From contig CALSMD010000001.1 in assembly GCA_943787365.1 (NCBI GenBank), positions 186,001-250,000 of the forward strand: a stretch of DNA of 64,000 nucleotides. The letters run 5' to 3'. Below are positions 51,899 through 63,805 of this stretch, piece by piece (position 1 is the stretch's first letter; each line of letters opens with the position of its first letter). Made by a program: the position numbers and the translations under genes. Source of the DNA: an uncultured Flavobacteriaceae bacterium (GTDB lineage Bacteria; Bacteroidota; Bacteroidia; Flavobacteriales; Flavobacteriaceae). The notes under the pieces are model-generated. The model searched no databases. It saw only the letters and a list, made by a program, of their open reading frames with translations, and was not told the DNA's origin.

Positions 51899-54800
51899 AT
51901 GAAACAAATTTCTACACTTTTAATATTCATTTTTACTTGTACACTGTGCTTCTCTCAGGTGACAACTTCAAGTATTAAGGGGTTAATCTCCGATGAAACC
52001 AATGCTGGCTTACCAGGAGCAAACGTTGTTGCAGTGCACACGCCAACAGGGACAACTTACGGAGCCGCCACCAACATTGACGGGCGATTTAACCTTGTCA
52101 ACCTTAGAGTTGGCGGACCTTACACAATTACGGTTAGTTATGTAGGCTACAAAGACCAATCGTTTACAGATGTATTCTTGACCTTAGGGAAAACAGAGAA
52201 TTTAACATTAGCATTAACACTTGATGCTGGACAATTGGATGCAGTGGTGATTACTGCAAACACTTCTAAAGGTGTTTTTGGAAGCGACCGTACAGGTGCT
52301 GAAACCAATGTAGGCCGTAGAGAATTGACAACACTTCCTACAATTTCTAGATCTGCTTCTGACTTTACACGTTTAGAGCCAACAGCAAGTAACGGTTCTT
52401 TTGGAGGACGTAACGACCAGTTTAATAACTTCTCTTTAGATGGAGCTATTTTCAACAATCCTTTTGGATTGGATGCAGCAACTCCTGGAGGGCAAACAAA
52501 TTCACAGCCGGTATCTTTAGATGCCATCGATCAAATACAAGTATCGACTGCGCCTTACGATGTAACGCAATCTGGATTTACAGGAGCAGCGGTGAATGCA
52601 GTGACGAAGAGTGGATCGAATGAATTTAAAGGAACTGTTTATGGTTTCTATAGAAATGAAGACATGACGGGTTCTAAGATCAAAGGACAGGAAATTTTTG
52701 TTCCAAGTCTTACGCAACAGCAAACTGGGTTTAGTATTGGTGGGCCGATTGTGAAAAACAAATTATTTTTCTTTGCCAATTACGAGCAAGATGAACGATC
52801 AGATTTAGGACAGGCATGGTTACCAAACACTGGATCTGGAGCGGTCAACGAATCTGTTGTTTTAGAATCTGACTTGATAGCTGTACAAAGTGCTTTAGCG
52901 AATTTAGGATATGATACAGGTACTTACCAAGGCTTTACGCACGAATCTGCATCTAGTAAAGGTATTTTCAAACTAGACTGGAATGTGAATGACAACAACC
53001 AATTAGCCGTTATATACAACTGGTTAGATGCTTCACAAGAAAAACCTGCACATCCATCTGCACTTGGAGTAAGAGGGCCGAGCGCGACAACGCTTCAGTT
53101 TCAAAACTCAGGATACCAGATTAACAATAAATTGCAATCCGTTCAATTGGAATTGAATTCTAGATTATCAGATGAAGTCTCTAACAAACTTCAAGTTGGT
53201 TATACAAATTTTGATGATTTCAGAAACCCAATGTCTTCTGCAGCGCCTGCAATTACAATTCAAAATGGTGCTGGACAAAATTACATTATTGCCGGTCATG
53301 AGCCATTTTCAGTCAACAACGTATTGAATCAAAAAGTGTTTCAGTTTTCTAATAATATGACGATTTCTAAAGCAAACCATACCTATACAGTTGGGTTCTC
53401 TTTTGAGAAATTTGAATTTGACAACTCATTTAACTTAGGAGCTTATGGCTATGGAAATGATGATGGATATGTAGGTGCTTTTGGTGCTTTTGGATCTATG
53501 GGAGATTTCTTAGCAGCTTCTACAAACGGATTGTTATCTGAAGCTTTAGCAAATGCACAAACTGTTAAAAATGCTGATTCATGGGCTTTAGCTGAAACAA
53601 ATGTTGGACAATTGGCATTTTACCTTCAAGATGAATGGGATGTAAATGACAACTTCAAATTAACTTACGGCTTGCGTTTTGATAAGCCTTTGTTTTTTGA
53701 TTCTGCTCAAAAAGCACAGGAAGTGATTGATGTCTCTTTTTACCAACCAGAAATTCCTTATGTAAATCCTAATACAGGAGAAGTTCAATTATTGGACAGC
53801 ACACAAATGCCATCAAACGATTGGTTAGTCTCTCCACGTGTTGGATTTAACTATGATGTAAAAGGAGATAGTACGATCCAATTAAGAGGAGGGTCTGGTT
53901 TATTTACAGGACGTTTTCCTTTTGTATGGTTAGGAAACCAAATCGGAAACCCTAATTCATATTTCTACCAAATGGTAGATCCTGATTATAAGTTCCCACA
54001 AGTTTGGAGAACGAATTTAGGATTGGATCACAAATATGACAATGGTTTGATTCTTACAGCAGATGTATCTTACACAAAAGATATGAACGGTGCACAAGTA
54101 CAAAACTGGGGACTTACAACGCCATCAGGGACTTTAGCAGGTGTGGATAACAGACCTTATTACACAGACGCTGACAAAATTAACAACGCTTATGTATTTA
54201 CAAATTCTGATAAAGGACGTATTTGGAATGCATCATTCAAAGCACAAAAAACGTTTGACAATGGTTTATATACCATGTTAGCTTATAGCTATTTAGATTC
54301 AAAAGATGTCAACTCCATTGAAGCTGAAATTACAGGAGATGCATTTGATTTCAACCCCGTTGTTGGGGATGTAAATTCAGATGAATTATCGTACTCTAGA
54401 TATGGAGATACGCACCGTGTCATTGGAGTTGTAAGTAAAAAATGGAACTACGGAACCAACAAAAAATGGGGAACTACGCTTTCTACTTTCTTTGAATATT
54501 CTCGTGGAGGTCGTTTTAGCTATACCTATGCAGGAAACATTAACGGCGATACATCGTTTCAAAATAATGACCTTTTATATGTGCCAACATCTGCAGAGAT
54601 TCAGCAAATGCAGTTTGACCCTACGGGAGATCCTGGACAAGCAGCAGCTTTTGACAATTACATCGCACAAGACGATTATTTAAGTGGTCGTAGAGGGCAA
54701 TATGCAGAGCGTTACGGCGCACAAGCACCATGGAGAGGCCGTTGGGATGTGAAATTTTTACAAGATTATAAAATCAAAATTTCTGAAAACAAAACCAACA

Positions 54801-55024
54801 CCATCCAGTTCAGTGTCGATGTTTTAAACTTTGGAAACTTAATTAGATCAGAATGGGGCTTAGTACAACAGCCAAACAACACGTCTCCAGTAGGAGTGAG
54901 TGTTGATCCAGCAACTTTGGTACCAACTTATACATTCAATCCGAACCAAACAGAAACGTTTGGATACGATTCTAGTTTAGCGTCAAGATGGCAAATGCAA
55001 TTTGGATTGCGCTATATCTTCTAG
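51899..55024 (+). CDS. Oar-like TonB-dependent receptor (CarboxypepD_reg N-domain)
   Basis: This 1041-residue outer-membrane protein has a signal peptide ending LCFSQ, a carboxypeptidase-regulatory domain (SSIKGLISDETNAGLPGANVVAVHTPTGTTYGAATNIDGRF), a plug (residues about 120-260, SASDFTRLEPTASNGSFGGRNDQFNNFSLDGA) and a long barrel ending in MQFGLRYIF with the terminal aromatic residue. It matches the Oar/Omp-like branch of SusC-type receptors. The substrate is unknown; no SusD partner is adjacent. Its 3' end is the site at which two foreign modules have inserted, and the first 22 bp after its stop codon are the repeated core. Confidence 0.93.
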   Translation: MKQISTLLIFIFTCTLCFSQVTTSSIKGLISDETNAGLPGANVVAVHTPTGTTYGAATNIDGRFNLVNLRVGGPYTITVSYVGYKDQSFTDVFLTLGKTENLTLALTLDAGQLDAVVITANTSKGVFGSDRTGAETNVGRRELTTLPTISRSASDFTRLEPTASNGSFGGRNDQFNNFSLDGAIFNNPFGLDAATPGGQTNSQPVSLDAIDQIQVSTAPYDVTQSGFTGAAVNAVTKSGSNEFKGTVYGFYRNEDMTGSKIKGQEIFVPSLTQQQTGFSIGGPIVKNKLFFFANYEQDERSDLGQAWLPNTGSGAVNESVVLESDLIAVQSALANLGYDTGTYQGFTHESASSKGIFKLDWNVNDNNQLAVIYNWLDASQEKPAHPSALGVRGPSATTLQFQNSGYQINNKLQSVQLELNSRLSDEVSNKLQVGYTNFDDFRNPMSSAAPAITIQNGAGQNYIIAGHEPFSVNNVLNQKVFQFSNNMTISKANHTYTVGFSFEKFEFDNSFNLGAYGYGNDDGYVGAFGAFGSMGDFLAASTNGLLSEALANAQTVKNADSWALAETNVGQLAFYLQDEWDVNDNFKLTYGLRFDKPLFFDSAQKAQEVIDVSFYQPEIPYVNPNTGEVQLLDSTQMPSNDWLVSPRVGFNYDVKGDSTIQLRGGSGLFTGRFPFVWLGNQIGNPNSYFYQMVDPDYKFPQVWRTNLGLDHKYDNGLILTADVSYTKDMNGAQVQNWGLTTPSGTLAGVDNRPYYTDADKINNAYVFTNSDKGRIWNASFKAQKTFDNGLYTMLAYSYLDSKDVNSIEAEITGDAFDFNPVVGDVNSDELSYSRYGDTHRVIGVVSKKWNYGTNKKWGTTLSTFFEYSRGGRFSYTYAGNINGDTSFQNNDLLYVPTSAEIQQMQFDPTGDPGQAAAFDNYIAQDDYLSGRRGQYAERYGAQAPWRGRWDVKFLQDYKIKISENKTNTIQFSVDVLNFGNLIRSEWGLVQQPNNTSPVGVSVDPATLVPTYTFNPNQTETFGYDSSLASRWQMQFGLRYIF

Positions 55025-55025
55025 T

Positions 55026-55047
55026 ATTAATTCAATCTTATTTTATA
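55026..55047 (+). other. Core recombination site, copy 1 (left junction, at receptor 3' end)
   Basis: This 22-bp sequence, starting ATTAATTCAATC and ending TTATTTTATA, begins one base after the receptor stop codon. Identical copies lie at 58134-58155 and 60871-60892. Upstream sequence is unique to this copy (the true receptor end); downstream sequence equals that after copy 2. This is the pattern of a left attachment junction. Confidence 0.75.
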
Positions 55048-55050
55048 TAA

Positions 55051-55079
55051 ATGCGTCCTAATTAGGGCGCATTTTTTTT
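55051..55079 (+). terminator. Terminator after the Oar-like receptor (copy in left end A)
   Basis: The stem ATGCGTCC / GGGCGCAT (one G-T wobble) with loop TAATTA is followed by eight T residues. A second copy lies at 58159-58187 within repeat A. Thus each integrated module brings a terminator to the receptor or to its own right end. Confidence 0.85.
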
Positions 55080-55199
55080 GCATAGTGTAGTGATTTGTTA
55101 TGTTGTATAAGCACCTAATTTAGTAAATACAAACTAAGTTTTAAACTAAAACTAGTTTTGTAAAAGTGTCTTTTTTAGCTCAGTTCTTTGTTACCACCA

Positions 55200-55228
55200 C
55201 ACGAAAGGATTCGTGCGGTAGCGGGGAC
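55200..55228 (+). repeat. REP-like hairpin at the shared/unique boundary of module 1 left end
   Basis: The stem CACGAA/TTCGTG is followed by CGGTAGCGGGGAC. Sequence identity with module 2 stops at the tail of this hairpin. Confidence 0.65.
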
Positions 55229-55276
55229 TTTCCAGATATGCCTTAACTTTGATTAAGCAACTGATTAGCTATGAGC

Positions 55277-55296
55277 TATATACGGTGTTGGCAAAC
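55277..55296 (+). repeat. Cassette end repeat, downstream side of the lipoprotein gene
   Basis: TATATACGGTGTTGGCAAAC is an inverted counterpart of the repeat at 56519-56540. The 44 bp before it (55241-55284) match 56664-56706, where the next cassette ends, in the same orientation. Confidence 0.65.
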
Positions 55297-55300
55297 GTTT

Positions 55301-56503
55301 TTAATTGCAGTCACATATATCATCAAAATTGTATAATAAAAAATCATAACCACCACATTGAGAATAAACACTTATATGATTATCTAGATGATTTGTTCCA
55401 GCGACACTTAAATAATTATCAACTAGAAGTGTTAATGCGCAAGTATTTTCTAAATCATTTTCAGTAAATGGATTTATAGAAACTATTTTAGATGTATATG
55501 CTAAACTCTCTAATCCATTTAATGTTGTTAAAGATGGATTATGATCCATTTGAAAGCAAAAATCTCCATTACTTCCATAAATCTCTGCTAAATTGGAAAA
55601 ACCTTCTAAACTATTTAAAACCAGATTGTGATTAATGTTAACTATACCTATCCTTTCAAGTGAAGGGAAATTAAACGATTCTAATGAATTATTTTCACCT
55701 AAATCTAGACCTGTCATGTCAACTACATTTTCAAAACCATTTATAGTTATAAGGGAATTACAAAAAGTAATACTTAGATATCCAAATTCAGTAAGCATAT
55801 TAAAATTACCTAAATTTATTAGAGAGTGACATTGATGTAAAATAAGCCTATCAATTTTATTATTGATATTATTTATGCTTTCTATTGATAGTAATTCTAA
55901 ATTATTAGAAATGTGTATTTCTGAATTAATTTCCGTTGTATCTGTATCAATAATGTCACTTTCAAAAGTTGTGGTTAAATTATTAAGCCCATTAAGATTT
56001 TTCAAATTATCATTAAATTGAATATTTAAATACGATATGGTTGTTAAAGATTCAAACCCTTCAAAATTAATTAGGCTTTCATTATGTCTAATATTTAATT
56101 CATCAAGTTTGCTGACATTCCCTATGCCTTCAAAATTAACAAGATTGTCACAATTTGTTACTATCAACCGTTCAACATTTTCTAAGTTTTGTAAGCCATT
56201 TAAATTAGCAATATTTGCATTTGTAATTATTAAATGGTCTATAGATTTTAAACAAGCAAGAGAAGATAAGTCACTAACATTTGAAACTCTTAAAGTTCCA
56301 TTTATATGTGTATATCCAAGAGTCTGAAAATCTGCTAATTGTTCTTCACTATTAAACGAATAGAAATCTTCTTCAGCAATAACTATTCCTTCATTATCAC
56401 ATAATATATTTGATGGAGAATCTATGTTTTCATCAGAATTATTTGAACAACTTATGGTAATAACTAATGTAATTAAGAATAAGAATAATTTGTTTTTTTT
56501 CAT
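55301..56503 (-). CDS. Leucine-rich-like repeat lipoprotein (module 1 cargo)
   Basis: The 400-residue lipoprotein has a signal MKKNKLFLFLITLVITISCSN. The mature part is made of irregular repeats of about 20-24 residues (LNGLQNLENVERLIVTNCDN, FEGIGNVSKLDELNIRHNES, FEGFESLTTISYLNIQFNDN), like leucine-rich or receptor-L-domain solenoids of Bacteroidota surface proteins. It is probably surface exposed and binds a ligand. The frame opens at 56527, but the ATG at 56503 fits the signal. The gene is AT-richer than the core genes and is bounded by inverted repeats at 55277 and 56519. Confidence 0.75.
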   Translation of the reverse strand: MKKNKLFLFLITLVITISCSNNSDENIDSPSNILCDNEGIVIAEEDFYSFNSEEQLADFQTLGYTHINGTLRVSNVSDLSSLACLKSIDHLIITNANIANLNGLQNLENVERLIVTNCDNLVNFEGIGNVSKLDELNIRHNESLINFEGFESLTTISYLNIQFNDNLKNLNGLNNLTTTFESDIIDTDTTEINSEIHISNNLELLSIESINNINNKIDRLILHQCHSLINLGNFNMLTEFGYLSITFCNSLITINGFENVVDMTGLDLGENNSLESFNFPSLERIGIVNINHNLVLNSLEGFSNLAEIYGSNGDFCFQMDHNPSLTTLNGLESLAYTSKIVSINPFTENDLENTCALTLLVDNYLSVAGTNHLDNHISVYSQCGGYDFLLYNFDDICDCN

Positions 56504-56518
56504 CTTATTTTTTTTAAT

Positions 56519-56719
56519 GTTTGCCAACGGTTTTGTATATGGCTCGTAGCGTGCAAATTATGAAATTATTTTCGGATTAAGCACGAGCCGAATTTTTTAA
56601 TTTTTCTTATTATCTTTTTTCTCAATAAGCCAAATTAAAAAATTTGGCGGACTAGCAAATATACCTTAACTTTGTTTAGTCAACTAACTAGATATGAGCT
56701 ATATACGTTGTTAGCAACT
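56519..56719. repeat. About 200-bp imperfect palindrome separating two gene cassettes
   Basis: The outer arms are GTTTGCCAACGG...GTATATGGCTC (56519-56545) and GAGCTATATACGTTGTTAGC plus AAC (56697-56719). Inside is a second long hairpin, GCCGAATTTTTTAATTT at 56587 against AAATTAAAAAATTTGGC ending at 56648, with one mismatch, and CTTATT/AATAAG next to the loop. The design recalls integron attC sites (imperfect palindrome between cassettes) but the end motifs do not match the GTTRRRY/RYYYAAC consensus exactly. Confidence 0.65.
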
Positions 56720-56723
56720 GGCA

Positions 56724-57290
56724 TTACTTACAATTCTTTATAATTGAATTCATTTTTGTTTTGAGTTTTGTCCACTCAATAGACGACCAATCTTTATCTT
56801 TCATATTGTCGAAATATCTTTCTATTTCCTTTTTTAAATCATCTCTAAAATTATTTGCATCAATTATCTTTTTTTCGTAATCCAATTTTACTTTTAAATC
56901 TCTTCTTATTCTCCATCCACCAGTTGTTTCTCCTTGATGTAAAATACCACATCTAATATGCTTATAAAATTGAAATGGAATATCATTTCCTGTGAAATCT
57001 TTAAATAAATTAGAACGATTGAAAAAACCACAAAATGCTAATGGTGAAGAAGGTGATTTAGACCAACCTCTATAAAAAGATTCATAAGTCTCAATTAGAA
57101 GACAACAACTTGCCATTATGTTGAAACCACTCTTATTCAACTTATTCTCTCCAGGTGTAATATATCTTTGAATAAGTCTAAGCTTTAATGATTCTGCGAT
57201 GATTTTTTTGTCCTCATTTGATTTAGACTTTATTCGTTTATTATATTCACCAATTGTAAAATTTGGATGAGCAATTATAAAAGATTCCAT
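56724..57290 (-). CDS. Unknown protein with HEPN-like R-x4-H motif (module 1 cargo)
   Basis: This 188-residue protein is soluble and mostly helical. No family was recognised with certainty. The segment HIRCGILHQGETTGG (near residue 113) has the R-x4-H arrangement of HEPN-domain RNases and toxins, preceded by helices (NIMASCCLLIETYESFYRGW) typical of the four-helix HEPN bundle. If so, it could be a ribonuclease toxin or defence effector. Only 7 bp separate its start from the upstream MORN-like lipoprotein gene, so the two are co-transcribed. Confidence 0.55.
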   Translation of the reverse strand: MESFIIAHPNFTIGEYNKRIKSKSNEDKKIIAESLKLRLIQRYITPGENKLNKSGFNIMASCCLLIETYESFYRGWSKSPSSPLAFCGFFNRSNLFKDFTGNDIPFQFYKHIRCGILHQGETTGGWRIRRDLKVKLDYEKKIIDANNFRDDLKKEIERYFDNMKDKDWSSIEWTKLKTKMNSIIKNCK

Positions 57291-57297
57291 ATGTTAA

Positions 57298-57765
57298 TTA
57301 TTTTCTTTCTTCATACATAAATTTTCCATTGTTGTCCCAAACTTTCCAGACACCAGTCTCTCTTCCATTTTTGTATTCACCAATATCCCAAACTTGACCA
57401 TTTTCATACCAACTTTTCCAATTTCCATTTTTTTTGCCATCTTTATAATTTACTTCAAAGAATAATTGACCATTTGAATACCAAGATTTTGAAATTCCCG
57501 TTTGAATTCCTTTTTTGTATTCTCTCTCTAAAAATATAATTTCTGGTGAATGCCATTTTCTAAATATACCATCTCTCTTACCATTTATAAAATTACATTC
57601 GTACTTTAATTTGCCATTATCAAAATAATCAACAACCAGCCCATTTACAAGACTCATATCATACTTGAAATATGCGATTTCGTCAACTACATTGATGTCT
57701 TTTAAACTAATTTTATCACTTTGACAGCTACAAAAGATAATGAATATCAATATTATTTTTTTCAT
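57298..57765 (-). CDS. MORN-repeat (YwqK-type) lipoprotein (module 1 cargo)
   Basis: The 155-residue lipoprotein has a signal MKKIILIFIIFCSCQSD. It has about five repeats of the MORN-2/YwqK type (YFDNGKLKYECNFINGKRDG, WYSNGQLFFEVNYKDGKKNG, WYENGQVWDIGEYKNGRETG, WDNNGKFMYEE). Databases often call such proteins toxin-antitoxin system YwqK family antitoxins, a name with little experimental support outside Fusobacteria. It precedes the HEPN-like gene by 7 bp. The ATG at 57765 is chosen at the signal peptide. Confidence 0.8.
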   Translation of the reverse strand: MKKIILIFIIFCSCQSDKISLKDINVVDEIAYFKYDMSLVNGLVVDYFDNGKLKYECNFINGKRDGIFRKWHSPEIIFLEREYKKGIQTGISKSWYSNGQLFFEVNYKDGKKNGNWKSWYENGQVWDIGEYKNGRETGVWKVWDNNGKFMYEERK

Positions 57766-57781
57766 AAGATGCTCTTTGCTT

Positions 57782-57799
57782 GTTGCTAACTCGTTATAT
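57782..57799 (+). repeat. Cassette end repeat, upstream side of the MORN-like gene
   Basis: GTTGCTAACTCGTTATAT is the inverted counterpart of ATATACGTTGTTAGCAAC at 56701-56718. The two copies enclose the MORN/HEPN gene pair. Confidence 0.6.
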
Positions 57800-57907
57800 G
57801 TCAACAAAAGGGTGTGTTAACGGTTATATATTCCGGGATAACACAATGTTTTAGTTGTTATTATTCGTAACTGATTTTAGTACAAGCATCTTGCTTGCCC
57901 CCGCATC

Positions 57908-58013
57908 TATAATTCAAATAAAACAATCGCTTACAACGGGTCAAGCTGCTTATGAAGATTTAGATTTGGGGTCTAAAATCTATCAAACTTATGAAATAGT
58001 TTATAAACTTTAA
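57908..58013 (+). pseudogene. Relic of an unidentified gene 3' end in right end B
   Basis: An open frame reads ...QIKQSLTTGQAAYEDLDLG then SKIYQTYEIVYKL and TAA at 58011-58013. The terminal hydrophobic/aromatic alternation looks like the last strand of an outer-membrane barrel. There is no start or upstream part. An identical relic occurs in copy 2 at +2737 bp (60645-60750). Confidence 0.45.
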
Positions 58014-58133
58014 AAAAAAGTATCCATTAATTTATGTAAACAGCTGTAAATAAATCAATTTTATTAATTTACAGTCGCATGGTTCACTTAAAACTTGAAT
58101 TTTTGCAATTTGGATTACGGTCTATCTTCTAGC

Positions 58134-58155
58134 ATTAATTCAATCTTATTTTATA
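58134..58155 (+). other. Core recombination site, copy 2 (junction of the two modules)
   Basis: This is the same 22 bp as copies 1 and 3. Here the upstream flank equals that of copy 3 and the downstream flank equals that of copy 1, as expected for the junction of two tandemly integrated elements. Confidence 0.75.
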
Positions 58156-58335
58156 TAAATGCGTCCTAATTAGGGCGCATTTTTTTTGCATTGTGTAGTG
58201 ATTTGTTATGTTGTATAAGCACCTAATTTAGTAAATACAAACTAAGTTTTAAACTAAAACTAGTTTTGTAAAAGTGTCTTTTTTAGCTCAGTTCTTTGTT
58301 ACCACCTCACGAAAGGATTCGTGCGGTAGCGGGGA
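58134..58335 (+). repeat. Module left end A, copy 2 (202 bp)
   Basis: It is a copy of 55026-55227 at an offset of 3108 bp with two substitutions. It overlaps right end B by the 22-bp core. It includes a second terminator (58159-58187) and ends with the REP-like hairpin at 58308. Confidence 0.95.
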
Positions 58336-58511
58336 TCGCTTATTATTTCTTTACTTTTATCTTCAACCAACACTGGTAATTCTCTTTCGCATTGCTCAGC
58401 AATTTCTTCAGGTTTGTCTTCCCAAACTAAACCGTACCGTTTTTTCTCTAATTGCTGTAATTTGGCAATGAGTTGTTCTTTACTATAATTATCGTATTTA
58501 TTCTTTGCCAT
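58299..58511 (-). pseudogene. Truncated N-terminus of a type III restriction-modification methylase (Mod)
   Basis: The open frame codes for 70 residues. The first 57 or so (MAKNKYDNYSKEQLIAKLQQ, then KRYGLVWEDKPEEIAEQC, ending near DKSKEI) resemble the conserved N-terminus of type III Mod/site-specific adenine methyltransferases of Bacteroidota. The remaining residues (SDPRYRTNPFVRW) are translated from the REP-like hairpin. The catalytic parts (DPPY and FxGxG) are missing, so it cannot be a functional enzyme. It abuts the AbiEii stop with no gap, so the methylase once belonged to the same operon. Confidence 0.72.
58308..58336 (+). repeat. REP-like hairpin at the shared/unique boundary of module 2 left end
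   Basis: The stem CACGAA/TTCGTG is followed by CGGTAGCGGGGA. It truncates the methylase gene: the coding homology stops where this hairpin begins. Confidence 0.65.
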
Positions 58512-59579
58512 TTATGCTGTTTTTATTTCGTAAATCTTGAACCAATAAAAAAATGCTTCAGGATTAGATTTTTTAAGTTTGTTTAGTTTGTTGTTCATTG
58601 GTTCGTTTATTTGCCATTCTTTCATTTGTATTTGGGTGTCATACTTTTCAATTTCTGTTTTCTCATATTTTATTAATGTGATGAGATAAGCTGTTTTAGA
58701 TGCTTGAGTAATTGCTTTTTCAATATGATAACTTTCAGAAAAAATATAAGCTCGTATTCTTTGTATTCCCAACTGTAATTCTTCGAAATTCCCTATTCCA
58801 TCTATTCCTCTACTTGCAATACAAAGGGAAGTTTGGTAAATATCTTCAATTACATCTTGTTCATTACAATCATTAATATTTCTGTATGACAATTCAGTTT
58901 TTGCAAATTGGTAAAATGTGTTTTTTATAATATTTAAGTCAATTACTTTATCAAATAAATTCCCTACATCATATAATTGCTTTATGATTTCCATACTCAT
59001 ACTGTTTTCACTTTTAAAGTATGGTATTCCTGTGGTATTGGGAGCAAAGGCAGTGAGCTTGTCTCCCAAAATATCTTCCAAACAGGGAAGGTTTACAAGT
59101 AATGGTTTGTTAATAATCGGTACAAAATTAGATTCTATAGGCAGTTGGATTATTTTTTTGTAATCCGCCTTTTCAAATAATATATCAAGTAAAATATAAT
59201 CTTCTGTTTTGTTTGATTTATGAAATGGAGTGTAGTAGAATTTAAAATGTGCTTTTGTGATTTTTGAATTTGTGTTTCGGTGTTGTAATTCTTTTCGTAA
59301 AAAACCTTGCTCGGTTGCCAAAGAATCTAATATGTCGTTTAGCCCAATATCCTCTTTAGGCAAAATAATATCAATGTCAATAGAAAGTCTTTTAGTAGAA
59401 TTGAAATGTAACATTAAAGCAGTTCCTCCTTTGAATACAAAGTCCAATTTTTGTTTCACAAGACCTTCTAATAGAATCAATGCTCGAATAACCTTTTCGA
59501 CAAGAATTTTATCAGCATTTTTATTTGCTTTTGAAACCTGATTAATCCATTCTATTGATATTTCTTTTTGATTTATCAT
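58512..59579 (-). CDS. AbiEii/AbiGii-type nucleotidyltransferase toxin
   Basis: This 355-residue toxin of the type IV AbiE system has the nucleotidyltransferase signature FKGGTALMLHFNSTKRLSID, with the GG-T loop and D-x-D (DIDIILP) near residues 45-75. A central region like PCLEDILGDKLTAFAPNTTGIPY is typical of AbiEii. By family knowledge the toxin transfers nucleotides to tRNA acceptor stems or other targets, giving abortive infection or stasis. It follows the antitoxin by 21 bp. The ATG at 59579 places the conserved helices correctly. Confidence 0.88.
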   Translation of the reverse strand: MINQKEISIEWINQVSKANKNADKILVEKVIRALILLEGLVKQKLDFVFKGGTALMLHFNSTKRLSIDIDIILPKEDIGLNDILDSLATEQGFLRKELQHRNTNSKITKAHFKFYYTPFHKSNKTEDYILLDILFEKADYKKIIQLPIESNFVPIINKPLLVNLPCLEDILGDKLTAFAPNTTGIPYFKSENSMSMEIIKQLYDVGNLFDKVIDLNIIKNTFYQFAKTELSYRNINDCNEQDVIEDIYQTSLCIASRGIDGIGNFEELQLGIQRIRAYIFSESYHIEKAITQASKTAYLITLIKYEKTEIEKYDTQIQMKEWQINEPMNNKLNKLKKSNPEAFFYWFKIYEIKTA

Positions 59580-59589
59580 AAACTATAAA

Positions 59590-59615
59590 TTGGCAGTAAA
59601 TTAATTTTGTTGCCG
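59590..59615. promoter_or_regulatory. AbiEi operator-like site, copy between the antitoxin and toxin genes
   Basis: This 26-bp site, with arms TTGGCAGTAAATTAATTT and TTGCCG, is the exact reverse complement of 60383-60408. It overlaps the last codons and stop of abiEi. Both copies are preceded by AACTATAAAT and followed soon by TAGAATT in the same orientation. Confidence 0.6.
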
Positions 59616-60305
59616 TAAATTAGAATTAATATATGTTTTAAGTTCTTCTTTTTTTCCTCTCCTGTTGGCATAACGTAACAACTTACTTTTATTGATTGAG
59701 TATTTTGAAAAAGCTTCATTATAAATAGTTCTCATTTCATTACCTTGATATGCCGAAAAGATGATTTCATCACAAAAAACATCTACTAATATTTTTTCTA
59801 AAGAAGAAGTGTTTATTCCATCTATGTTTTGTGTAGGAGCTTCAGTTATTAGTGTTTTAACAATTATTAAATTATTGTTCTCTGTTATGTATTTTTCAAA
59901 AACATCTTTTGAAGGTTCTAAAAAGACTGAGTATTTGTTTTCTTTTAAATAAAGAAATATGGCTTGTGTTGCTTCTTTCTCAACTTCAATTAATAAATAG
60001 AATTGATTGGCTTGATGCAGGGTAAATTCATTAAGAATAGAAGAATTCCAGATGCAAGATTCTAAATATGGAAAATGTTTTTTTATTTTTTTACTTAGAA
60101 TTTTTTCTTTTGAAGAAATCTCAGGAATAAAATAATTCATTGCTCCAAGAGTAAATATTCCTTTTCCAATTCGTTTAAGAACACCTTGTTTTATCAAAGT
60201 AAATACTCGCCAATTGATAGTCGTTTGACTAATATTGGGTTCAAACCCTTTAAAGAAATTAGCAATGTCAGTTGTTTCAAAGCTTTTTCGATTTTTGAAA
60301 AACAT
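59601..60305 (-). CDS. AbiEi-type antitoxin / transcriptional repressor
   Basis: The 234-residue protein has an N-terminal winged-helix region (IANFFKGFEPNISQTTINWRVFTLIKQGVLKRIGKGIFTLG) followed by an AbiEi-like alpha/beta domain, as in the DUF6577 antitoxins of Bacteroidota. It should neutralise the downstream AbiEii toxin and repress the operon. Its promoter carries a 26-bp imperfect palindrome on the -33 box. The gene is very AT-rich, unlike the core genes, consistent with transfer. Confidence 0.82.
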   Translation of the reverse strand: MFFKNRKSFETTDIANFFKGFEPNISQTTINWRVFTLIKQGVLKRIGKGIFTLGAMNYFIPEISSKEKILSKKIKKHFPYLESCIWNSSILNEFTLHQANQFYLLIEVEKEATQAIFLYLKENKYSVFLEPSKDVFEKYITENNNLIIVKTLITEAPTQNIDGINTSSLEKILVDVFCDEIIFSAYQGNEMRTIYNEAFSKYSINKSKLLRYANRRGKKEELKTYINSNLRQQN

Positions 60306-60361
60306 TGTTAATTTTTCAATATGTAACTTGTCTTTAGCGATAGTATTTCTTTTTAACTCAG

Positions 60362-60408
60362 CAAATGTACAAAACTATAAATCGGCAACAAAATTAATTT
60401 ACTGCCAA
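60362..60408 (-). promoter_or_regulatory. Promoter and operator of the AbiE operon
   Basis: On the minus strand TTTTG (60389-60393), a 19-bp spacer and TACATTTG (60362-60369) form a consensus promoter. The 26-bp operator-like palindrome at 60383-60408 (arms GGCAAC...CTGCC around AAATTAATTT) lies directly over the -33 box. AbiEi antitoxins are known to repress by binding inverted repeats, so this fits negative autoregulation. Confidence 0.65.
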
Positions 60409-60616
60409 TTATTAGAATTCTGTTAGCGTGGGGAAGATTAAGCTCTTTTGGTTTTTATGTGTTGGCTTTTGTGTAGGCAAAAACCAAATGTGCTTAATGT
60501 GCGGCTGGCTTTTTTCGGTATGAAACACAACTAGTTATATGGAGAACAAACCTCCTGTTTATACGTCTCTATTTCCGGATAATAGGAACTTTTGGTTTCT
60601 TTATCCAAAATCAAAT

Positions 60617-60892
60617 GTACAAGCATCTTGCTTGCCCCCGCATCTATAATTCAAATAAAACAATCGCTTACAACGGGTCAAGCTGCTTATGAAGATTTAG
60701 ATTTGGGGTCTAAAATCTATCAAACTTATGAAATAGTTTATAAACTTTAAAAAAAAGTATCCATTAATTTATGTAAACAGCTGTAAATAAATCAATTTTA
60801 TTAATTTACAGTCGCATGGTTCACTTAAAACTTGAATTTTTGCAATTTGGATTACGGTCTATCTTCTAGCATTAATTCAATCTTATTTTATA
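60617..60892 (+). repeat. Module right end B, copy 2 (276 bp)
   Basis: It is the same as 57880-58155. It ends the second module and borders the promoter of the DUF6495-hisS genes. The 635-bp stretch 60306-60940 holds the AbiE promoter, a region with an imperfect hairpin (TTTGGTTTTT against AAAAACCAAA near 60447-60488) and this repeat; no gene is seen. Confidence 0.95.
60871..60892 (+). other. Core recombination site, copy 3 (right junction)
   Basis: It is identical to copies 1 and 2. The downstream flank (AATTTGCACACTGC) is unique and gives the promoter of the next gene, so this is the native right flank. Confidence 0.75.
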
Positions 60893-60898
60893 AATTTG
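60891..60898 (+). promoter_or_regulatory. -7 box of the DUF6495-hisS promoter, formed partly by the core site
   Basis: TAAATTTG begins in the last two bases of core copy 3. The TAnnTTTG box therefore lies across the integration junction, and the -33 region is supplied by the element or, in the native state, by the receptor 3' end. Confidence 0.5.
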
Positions 60899-60940
60899 CA
60901 CACTGCAAATAGGACACATTTTTTTTAACTATAATCAAGG

Positions 60941-61411
60941 ATGAAATACACAAGACTTACCAAAGAACAGTTGGAGGAATTAAACCAAGAGTTTATTAAT
61001 TTTTTAGCAACGCAATCCATCACGGCAGATGAATGGAAAGAGATCAAGGAACAGAAGCCCGAAGTGGCAGAAGAGGAATTGGATATTTTTAGCGACTTGG
61101 TTTGGGAAGGCGTGTTGTCAAAAGTGGAGTATCTAGAAAATATAGCGCCGCAGCACATGTATCTGTTTAAAGTGGATGCATCGCAGTTGCGATTGATTGG
61201 ACTCAAAATAAAAAAAGAGGACATTGATTTGACCACCAAAGAAGGGTTTGGGTGGTTAAGAGAAAATTTGATGTCAGACGAGGTCGAATTGTTCAATGCC
61301 GATAAAACGCTTGAAGCCGATAAAAACACAAAAATATTTGAACTTATCGTGCAAGGGTCTAACATCACAAAAGGCGATCTTTATAAGTATTTAGAAGATC
61401 TAATTGGATAG
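60941..61411 (+). CDS. DUF6495 family protein
   Basis: This 156-residue acidic cytoplasmic protein matches a family restricted to Flavobacteriia (MKYTRLTKEQLEELNQEFINFLATQSITADEW ... LVWEGVLSKVEYLENIAPQHMYLF). The function is unknown. It lies 40 bp upstream of hisS in the same direction, an arrangement frequent in the order. The reverse-strand frame of similar length is an artefact. Confidence 0.82.
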   Translation: MKYTRLTKEQLEELNQEFINFLATQSITADEWKEIKEQKPEVAEEELDIFSDLVWEGVLSKVEYLENIAPQHMYLFKVDASQLRLIGLKIKKEDIDLTTKEGFGWLRENLMSDEVELFNADKTLEADKNTKIFELIVQGSNITKGDLYKYLEDLIG

Positions 61412-62877: not shown

Positions 62878-63069
62878 ATGACCACAATTACGATTGAAAA
62901 CGGCAAAGATCTTCCCCAAAAAACATTTAGCAATTGGGAAGAACTGCGAAATATATTGAATTTTATGGCGCTTCAGTTTAAGCAAACTAAAGAATCTTCT
63001 ACCATACCCGAAAATCTAAAAGAGAAACCATTATCAGCTTTCAACTACCTGACTGATGAAAGTTTATGA
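62878..63069 (+). CDS. Putative antitoxin of pair 1
   Basis: This 63-residue protein begins MTTITIENGKDLPQKTFSNWEELRNIL, a short beta strand and helix pattern shared with the antitoxins of pairs 2 and 3. It overlaps the downstream toxin gene by 14 bp, usual for type II systems, in which the antitoxin is made first. No named family was recognised; the antitoxin role is inferred from order and repetition. Confidence 0.65.
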   Translation: MTTITIENGKDLPQKTFSNWEELRNILNFMALQFKQTKESSTIPENLKEKPLSAFNYLTDESL

Positions 63070-63292
63070 AACTGACACAGCAGTTGCCTATTTAAAAAAG
63101 AGAGAACTCATTAAACCGTATCTCAAAGCCAAACAATACTTTGAGCAAGGACATACTCGAATGGTTAAGCTAAAACTATTACAACCTAACAAAAATAAAG
63201 AATACCAATTTAGGATAAACGATAAATATCGTGCTCGTGGTTTTTACAAAGAAAACGGTTTTTTGGTCACTGAAATATCCGACCATCAGTAA
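63056..63292 (+). CDS. RelE/ParE-like toxin of pair 1
   Basis: The 78-residue protein has the compact alpha-beta pattern of RelE/ParE toxins: N-terminal strand and helices (YLKKRELIKPYLKAKQYFEQG), then strands MVKLKLLQ, KEYQFRINDKYRARGF and FLVTEISDHQ at the C-terminus, where RelE-type proteins have R-x-x-x-Y-R and an I-x-H end. Mode of action (mRNA interferase or gyrase poison) cannot be told. It overlaps its partner's 3' end. Confidence 0.68.
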   Translation: MKVYETDTAVAYLKKRELIKPYLKAKQYFEQGHTRMVKLKLLQPNKNKEYQFRINDKYRARGFYKENGFLVTEISDHQ

Positions 63293-63326
63293 AACTTCAA
63301 GAGATATTCCCCCACCCAAACAAAAA

Positions 63327-63358
63327 TTTGCACAAAAACCCTCTTTTCCATATATTTA
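63327..63358 (+). promoter_or_regulatory. Promoter of toxin-antitoxin pair 2 (TTTG-N20-TATATTTA)
   Basis: TTTG ends at 63330 and TATATTTA covers 63351-63358, exactly 500 bp after the corresponding bases of pair 1. The final A is the only deviation from the -7 consensus. Confidence 0.75.
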
Positions 63359-63377
63359 ACTGTTAATAATAAAAAAA

Positions 63378-63569
63378 ATGACGACAATTACTATCAAAGA
63401 CGGACAAAAATTACCAAAAACTGAGTTTGGAACAATCAAAGATTTTCTAGAATGGGCTGTTGATCATTTTCAAGAAGAAATACCTTTGTCAGAAAAAACT
63501 ATCAAGAAAGCAGCAAAAGCCAAGAAAGAAATTTCATCGCCAAACTCAACTTTTAAACCGGCATTATAA
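63378..63569 (+). CDS. Putative antitoxin of pair 2
   Basis: This 63-residue protein, MTTITIKDGQKLPKTEFGTI and onward, is a paralogue of the pair 1 antitoxin. The C-terminus is Lys/Ala/Ser rich (TIKKAAKAKKEISSPNS). The stop overlaps the toxin ATG as TAATG at 63567-63571. Confidence 0.65.
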   Translation: MTTITIKDGQKLPKTEFGTIKDFLEWAVDHFQEEIPLSEKTIKKAAKAKKEISSPNSTFKPAL

Positions 63570-63805
63570 TGCTCGTGTTCGATAATGAAAATGCTCGAAA
63601 AGATTTACAAAAATTTCAATTAACCAAGCAATACAAAAAAGCTTGTGATTATATTCGTGATGACCAATATTATAAGGTTCAATTAAAACTGCGGAAACCG
63701 AAATCAAAAGGTATTTACCAGTTTAGAATTTCTAAAAAATACCGTGCCTTTGCTATCAAAAAAGAACAAACTTTATTTGTTTTTGAAATCTCCGACCATC
63801 AGTAA
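63569..63805 (+). CDS. RelE/ParE-like toxin of pair 2
   Basis: The 78-residue protein shares the pattern of the first toxin (VQLKLRKPKSKGIYQFRISKKYRAFAI ... FVFEISDHQ) but is diverged in its N-terminal helices. The pair is therefore an old duplication, with identical length and C-terminal residues. It is translationally coupled to its antitoxin. Confidence 0.68.
   Translation: MLVFDNENARKDLQKFQLTKQYKKACDYIRDDQYYKVQLKLRKPKSKGIYQFRISKKYRAFAIKKEQTLFVFEISDHQ

Follow-up and report, generated by a model that had tools for sequence, protein, structure and literature searches.

Two similar blocks of DNA lie in tandem at the 3′ end of a gene for an Oar-like TonB-dependent receptor in the genome of an uncultured Flavobacteriaceae bacterium, and the question raised by this locus is what kind of element they are and how the second came to stand beside the first. 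The window analysed here is the 64-kb stretch from 186 to 250 kb of contig C1, in an assembly of 2.30 Mb that is 88.8% complete. A sequence-only reading had proposed that two circular elements, each of the form right end B, 22-bp core and left end A, integrated one after the other at the core. We arrive at a different answer: the two modules are probably orphan integron-like platforms, with an attI-like docking site and no recombinase gene of their own, whose cassettes are exchanged in trans and of which the second arose by unequal crossing-over.

The 22-bp core, ATTAATTCAATCTTATTTTATA, is found in exact copies starting at positions 55026, 58134 and 60871, as had been claimed, and at no further place on either strand of the window when up to three mismatches are allowed. 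The arrangement of the flanks (receptor end and A around the first copy, B and A around the second, B and the promoter side around the third) had also been described correctly. End A is identical between the two modules at 178 of 180 positions and end B at 254 of 254. End A of module 1 (55048..55227, plus strand) consists of a terminator, half of a putative attC-like site read on the minus strand and a hairpin of the repetitive extragenic palindromic (REP) type at about 55200-55226; in end A of module 2 (58156..58335, plus strand) the REP-type hairpin lies at about 58308-58334. End B of module 1 (57880..58133, minus strand) is made up of a leader, B1 (57880-58034), an AT-rich hairpin and a copied receptor 3′ end, and end B of module 2 lies at 60617..60870 on the minus strand.

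All cargo genes of both modules are on the minus strand, and between them lie palindromes that start with AAC..CGTATA and end with TATAC..CGTTR. Searching 18 stretches for this pattern yielded 14 distinct palindromes, on the strand of the cargo genes. The pattern was chosen by eye and supplied most of the attC candidates behind R1, a covariance model of attC-like sites built from 15 sites; the weight therefore rests on the later tests. When 15 sites were aligned, 91.9% of the cells of the stem were paired and 8 of 14 pairs covaried, with 28 cells changed on both sides, a covariation that was reached by none of 500 shuffles. The sites are imperfect palindromes with paired boxes, as are the attC sites of canonical integrons. 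Module 1 has such a site between its cassettes 1 and 2 (56519..56718, minus strand), which scores 91.8 bits with R1 and is itself among the 15 sites from which the model was built, and another that belongs to its leucine-rich repeat (LRR) cassette (55073..55295, minus strand; R1 33.5 bits, E 0.00019), the 5′ box of which matches the cassette start in a run of 10. Judged from its sequence, end A represents the 3′ half of the last attC-like site; the REP hairpin interrupts this site, which is truncated at the receptor terminator.

A cassette of integron type should have a start (after G|TT) that is the reverse complement of its own end box, both forming one palindrome in the circle. This was found in 13 of 13 hand-anchored cassettes, including both cassettes of module 1, with runs of 8-10 nt, and none of 20000 permutations reached the observed match. 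By the time these anchors were picked, the match had already been spotted by eye in most cassettes, and it is the automatic version of the test that is independent. Its input was R1 sites from 28 sources (108 sites, with stretch L102 of a long array, among others, left out), and it kept sites with placeable AAC and GTT and cassettes of 150-4000 bp. The result was a set of 76 cassettes, of which 73 come from other genera. A run of at least 8 was present in 68; the mean match was 6.38 of the 7 positions beyond GTT, compared with 2.78 when the two boxes within a physical attC were compared and 2.60 when pairs were drawn at random, and was reached by none of 5000 permutations. Cassette starts and ends are complementary as expected for circularisation at G|TT, so far as sequence evidence goes. 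The R box carries GTTR in 75 of the 76 cassettes; about six bases after this are free, and position 11 is invariably A. It is not the canonical R box (GTTRRRY / RYYYAAC), since GTTRRRY fits only 2 of the 76.

In front of the cassettes, each module carries an attI-like site. That of module 1 (57788..57879, minus strand) is of type 1, with the junction A|GTT at 57790, and that of module 2 (60529..60616, minus strand) is of type 3; its A|GTT junction, at 60531, is the point at which the sister genome G009 carries extra cassette DNA. The left edge of module 1 B (57787-57865) shares 92% identity over 79 bp with a stretch that overlaps the 3′ end of an IntI-like recombinase gene in G009. Across the 18 genomes of the genus, type 1 sites occur at 21 places in 5 genomes and type 3 sites, the kind present in module 2, at 26 places in 9 genomes. 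An attC match was found downstream on the same strand within 4 kb at 23 of these 47 sites, on the opposite strand at none, and upstream on the same strand at 3. Docking sites of this kind lie behind secA in the two sister genomes, where their cargo differs, and behind trpA in G009. Mimicry of a gene end as a general habit of the platforms was rejected, as behind secA and trpA only the repeated terminator recurs. Leader B1 is a dispersed repeat that stands before attI-like sites and cassettes, where it may act as a promoter. Together with the terminator it also precedes ordinary genes that have no attI-like site (L040 at 12017 and 12854; L041 at 7826), and B1 is therefore not specific to platforms.

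The sister genome offers a direct comparison. The receptor region of the window genome is 98.4% identical to that of G009, and between the two genomes end A is nearly unchanged (176-179 of 180 positions), as is end B (253-254 of 254). The attI of module 1 is the same in both and ends in ATATAACGA|GTTAG, and the cassettes after it differ: a MORN-repeat gene follows in the window genome and a TIR-domain gene in G009 (PADLOC ThsB, 83.8 bits). At the junction of module 2 the window genome reads CATATAACTA|GTTGTGTTTCATACC and G009 reads CATATAACCA|GTTGGCAATAATATC. After this junction G009 has a 123-aa gene with an IS1182 copy inside its attC (read by eye), and then continues ...ATACAAACAC|GTTGTGTTTCATACC. 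The module 2 of the two genomes thus differs by DNA exactly at the attI junction A|GTT, and in module 1 the cargo has been replaced in place.

These observations bear on an ordinary explanation, in which DNA was inserted at random and then duplicated in tandem by homologous recombination, with no gene-capture system involved. Unequal crossing-over is ordinary, and the REP hairpins at the cargo borders, together with a Y1 REP-associated transposase in the genome, indicate that some of the rearrangement is driven by REP or insertion sequence (IS) elements. Such an origin would not lead one to expect complementary cassette starts and ends, covarying palindromes, one-way orientation behind attI-like sites or a sister difference exactly at the junction; for the cargo it is refuted by the start-end tests and the sister junctions, and it may still hold for the origin of the second module. 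As a whole we regard it as very improbable. The REP hairpin in A is a member of a REP family, and the REP-associated transposase is encoded in the same genome; as a mobile end of the module the hairpin was rejected, as it marks truncations of cargo and leaves A and B unexplained. Repeated copies of a gene for a REP-associated tyrosine transposase, with the same REP hairpin as at the A border, were seen in L042:6960-12240, and one REP-transposase pair in L042 disrupts an Rhs/YD-like region (read by eye). IS1182-family elements lie in or beside attC-like sites of the sister genome (L039:9652-11900 and L062:13650-15350, junctions by eye), positions that look as if attC were a target of these elements.

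A candidate for the enzyme that moves the cassettes is found outside the window. G009, a single contig of 2.7 Mb, has an intact gene for a 387-aa tyrosine recombinase at C1:1281665-1282825; an attI-like sequence overlaps its 3′ end, and a cassette array in the same direction follows. The attI-like site therefore adjoins the recombinase gene in G009, as in canonical integrons, and does not do so in the window. This recombinase and those of two relatives score 220.8 to 237.3 with NF040815, a model named "tyrosine recombinase/integron integrase" (cut-off 220), and 210.0, 219.4 and 206.5 bits with the integron integrase model TIGR02249 (cut-off 265). The alignment to IntI4 (2a3v) is split at residues 194-243: about 48 additional residues of IntI stand against 4 of the query, and the additional segment specific to IntI is therefore absent. 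A passage of PMC9668308 presents the IntI-specific domain as a defining characteristic that is needed for integron-mediated recombination, and by that definition the recombinase is not an IntI; its action may nevertheless be IntI-like. According to a part of PMC8138268, the insertion is not fully conserved within the integron-like subgroup treated there. An attC match lies downstream on the same strand at 9 of the 12 recombinase loci with usable downstream sequence.

At E 1e-40 the IntI-like gene is present in 5 of the 18 genus genomes, in one of them with stops. It was not found in the window's own genome as assembled (88.8% complete). Both facts would suit a reading in which the platforms are fossils, gathered by a recombinase since lost and changing now only through homologous recombination or the activity of REP or IS elements; the attC truncated at A and the IS1182 copy inside an attC of the sister genome would suit it as well. 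Cassettes that differ at exact A|GTT junctions between genomes with a 98.4% identical receptor region speak against such fossils, as does the intact recombinase gene in the sister genome. We consider this reading possible, if doubtful.

We now turn to the site itself. The receptor gene (51899..55024, plus strand) matches Pfam OMP_b-brl_4 (165 bits), CarboxypepD_reg and TonB_dep_Rec_b-barrel, and its label "Oar-like" is taken from the sequence-only reading. Direct repeats of the receptor 3′ end and its terminator flank the inserted DNA. They exceed 22 bp: the three copies measure 84, 84 and 86 bp, running from TGCAATTTGG, in the last codons of the receptor, to the T-run of the receptor terminator, and the 22 bp are the portion common to all three. 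Copy 1 (54996..55079, plus strand), with the receptor 3′ end, core 1 (55026-55047) and the terminator, has kept the stem and lost the promoter-like TAAATTTG. Copy 2 (58104..58187, plus strand; core 2 at 58134-58155) is a recombinant with the right half of copy 1 and the left half of copy 3. In copy 3 (60841..60926, plus strand; core 3 at 60871-60892) the promoter-like TAAATTTG is kept and the terminator stem has decayed. The duplication of the receptor 3′ end at B, noticed by the sequence-only reading, is real, and it takes in the terminator as well as the last codons. Compared with the relative G003, the real receptor end has two differences and the copied end two others, so that both seem to derive from a single ancestral end. 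A recent origin of the copied end from a distant donor appears less likely on these differences, though the stretch is short. A paralogous receptor as the source was rejected, since a query that included the copied end had no other strong match in the own genome. A microhomology, TTTTTGCA, occurs at both insertion junctions and would point to a microhomology event; as evidence it is weak in AT-rich DNA and was not used.

The expectation that related genomes would have an empty site was borne out. In 8 of the 18 genus genomes the receptor end, core, terminator and DUF6495 start follow one another with nothing between, and the modules are a true insertion; the site is filled in the window's own genome and in G009, and in 6 of the 18 it was not aligned. 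The core of the empty sites is identical or nearly so. In these sites the terminator stem overlaps the TAAATTTG box, which we take to be the promoter of the operon that follows. Where the site is filled, the stem survives without the box in the left and middle copies, and the box without the stem in the right copy; this complementary decay of left and right copies fits a duplicated target. The receptor itself has been lost at the site in two relatives (L018 and L022), where it is absent or shortened to its final codons and core and terminator persist. G013 has a mere remnant of the receptor before the core, and G012 has no receptor there, rplI (read by eye) standing directly before the core.

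Since the core is the invariant middle of the target repeat and is kept in empty sites, any insertion that duplicates its target gives this flank pattern once unequal crossing-over has followed, and the claim that a B-core-A circle crossed over at the core finds no support. Two such circles, integrated successively with an integrase acting in trans or with a single homologous crossover in a 52-bp identical stretch, would fit the flank order, the existence of empty sites and the different attI types of the modules, as for independent arrivals; the roughly 50 bp common to the copies would probably suffice for homologous recombination. Neither module showed an integrase, in agreement with the sequence-only reading (open reading frames (ORFs) of at least 60 aa were listed, and the five main cargo ORFs were scanned against Pfam), so that a recombinase would have to act in trans, as that reading had said. 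Against the circles, a search of the genomes of 60 relatives found B-core-A nowhere else among the matches listed, whether integrated or free; several empty sites have the core in an equally conserved form; as after a duplication, B is the same in both modules and A shows 2 differences in 180 positions; and replacement of cargo in place, between unchanged A and B, is directly seen. Nor did B-core-A have a match in plasmid and phage records, and the core as the att of a phage, plasmid or viral element was rejected, with 0 exact core matches in viral contigs. We consider successive circles improbable.

The reading that we prefer, that of orphan platforms, can be set out as follows. Each module would consist of leader B1, an attI-like site and minus-strand cassettes ending in attC-like palindromes, without a recombinase of its own. 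Circular cassettes would be inserted and excised at A|GTT by a Xer/IntI-like tyrosine recombinase acting in trans, the gene for which lies elsewhere, in the sister genome and in relatives. A single entry of the first platform, in the ancestor that the window genome shares with its sister, would have duplicated about 85 bp of receptor end and terminator, after which the left copy would have kept the terminator and the right copy the promoter-like box. From copies 1 and 3, unequal crossing-over would then have produced the second module; on its own it gives exactly the middle copy that is seen, with its B-core-A flanks. Ends A and B resemble each other between the modules as closely as they do between the two species. 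An exchange of cassettes and of one attI type would have come later, that of the attI type for example by homologous recombination through B1.

Several points weigh against this reading. The IntI-like gene was not found in the window's own genome, as said above, and neither excision nor a circle has been observed. Downstream attC matches are lacking at 24 of the 47 attI-like sites, and the one credited to the module 2 site, which is among the 23, belongs to module 1; module 2 in the window has no clear attC of its own. Of the 12 recombinase loci, 2 have no downstream attC match and 1 has a weak one, and 8 of the 76 cassettes fail the start-end test. The attI types differ between the modules, which exchange of cassettes alone does not explain, and the reading does not account for the mechanism of the first insertion.

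Module 1 holds two cassettes. The first gene of cassette 1 (57298..57807, minus strand) encodes a MORN-repeat protein (MORN_2, 61.5 bits), for which an ATG at about 57765 is the likelier start; the second (56724..57290, minus strand) encodes 188 aa with no Pfam match. Cassette 2 carries a gene for an LRR-like, lipoprotein-like protein of 408 aa (55301..56527, minus strand), the LRR matches of which are below the Pfam cut-off. In module 2, an AbiEi-type antitoxin (DUF6577; 59601..60305, minus strand; PADLOC AbiEi 297.4 bits, PF20217) and an AbiEii-type nucleotidyltransferase toxin (58512..59579, minus strand; PADLOC AbiEii 446.7 bits, Pfam AbiEii) form the pair of an AbiE type IV toxin-antitoxin system, as predicted from the genes. 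A 70-aa ORF (58299..58511, minus strand) with no Pfam match runs into the REP hairpin; it is possibly the truncated N-terminus of a DNA methyltransferase, judging from one weak plasmid match (46.8% over 46 residues, E 5e-3). Downstream of the modules lie a DUF6495 gene (60941..61411, plus strand; PF20105) and then hisS (tRNA-synt_His). Behind hisS, at 62878-63805 of the window, are two tandem gene pairs that look toxin-antitoxin-like by eye, in a neighbourhood with internal repeats. Rfam gave no match above threshold and only two sub-threshold microRNA matches. Family matches were confirmed for the receptor, rplI, hisS, secA, trpA, DUF6495 and the REP-associated and IS1182 transposases.

Sites of this kind extend beyond the genus. 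At E 1e-4, R1 has matches in 69 of 80 genomes of the family and in 16 of 80 drawn across the phylum; within the genus it has none in 3 of the 18 genomes (G015, G016 and G017). Early R1 scans scored 150 or 33 candidates per genome, a part of the total, and site counts are lower bounds. The recombinase is present in 31 of the 80 phylum genomes, which overlap only partially with those that have R1 matches. No canonical IntI above cut-off was found in 199 genomes of the family, in a search without a positive control in which matches were scored in pieces. The complete genome G031 shows 60 attC-like sites, all on one strand, in the four stretches searched; two long arrays are seen there (L102-L106; C1 2212000-2245000 and 2745000-2800000), one of which ends beside an IntI-like gene. 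Open-licence literature on integrons yielded no description of such arrays in Flavobacteriaceae, an absence that is no proof. Integrons are regarded as rare in Bacteroidetes. A section of PMC9024848 states that in Bacteroidetes previously only integrases without cassettes were seen, and names one complete integron, in Salinibacter ruber.

The find is an integron-like system and not a new class of integrative element. Like integrons, it has a recombinase gene beside an attI-like site, cassettes in one direction, two-box attC-like palindromes, a junction of the G|TT type and, in each cassette, a start and an end that are complementary as in a circle. Unlike integrons, its recombinase lacks the IntI-specific segment and reads in the same direction as the cassettes, its R box is GTTR-N6-A, and many attI-like sites per genome stand without an adjoining recombinase. 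To our knowledge, many orphan attI platforms per genome are new for integrons. The platforms resemble clusters of attC sites lacking an integrase (CALIN, as defined in a passage of PMC9024848) in having attC arrays without a neighbouring intI, and differ in the attI-like site and leader in front. The common direction of recombinase and cassettes is shared with integrons of the spirochaete type, in which intI is in reverse orientation and encodes a canonical IntI with the additional domain, a segment that the recombinase here does not have. Such a reverse orientation of intI is mentioned in a passage of PMC9668308. The three recombinases tested resemble XerA/XerC-D and the NF040815 proteins in that all three pass the NF040815 cut-off, and differ from them by about 90 extra N-terminal residues before the SAM-like domain and by adjoining cassette arrays. 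Some elements integrate at the 3′ ends of tRNA or protein genes by means of tyrosine integrases. The modules are like these in that a direct repeat re-creates the gene end at both borders; they differ in that no integrase lies inside, that target duplication explains the repeat, that no other integrated copy was found, and that other platforms have no gene-end mimic.

Beyond this locus, we think it likely that Flavobacteriaceae have a family-wide integron-like system, with a segment-less Xer/IntI-like recombinase, attC sites of the GTTR-N6-A kind, large chromosomal arrays, and many orphan attI platforms with a leader, placed behind core genes and loaded in trans with cargo for defence and other functions. 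It would probably escape standard integron detection. Part of the cargo is defence-like (AbiE, TIR). If the arrays function as integrons, a large system of gene capture has been overlooked in an abundant family of bacteria, marine and other, and it would operate without the segment considered essential for integron integrases; and the arrays make the role of that segment directly testable. Several orphan attI sites per genome would, moreover, alter the picture of one integron with one docking site.

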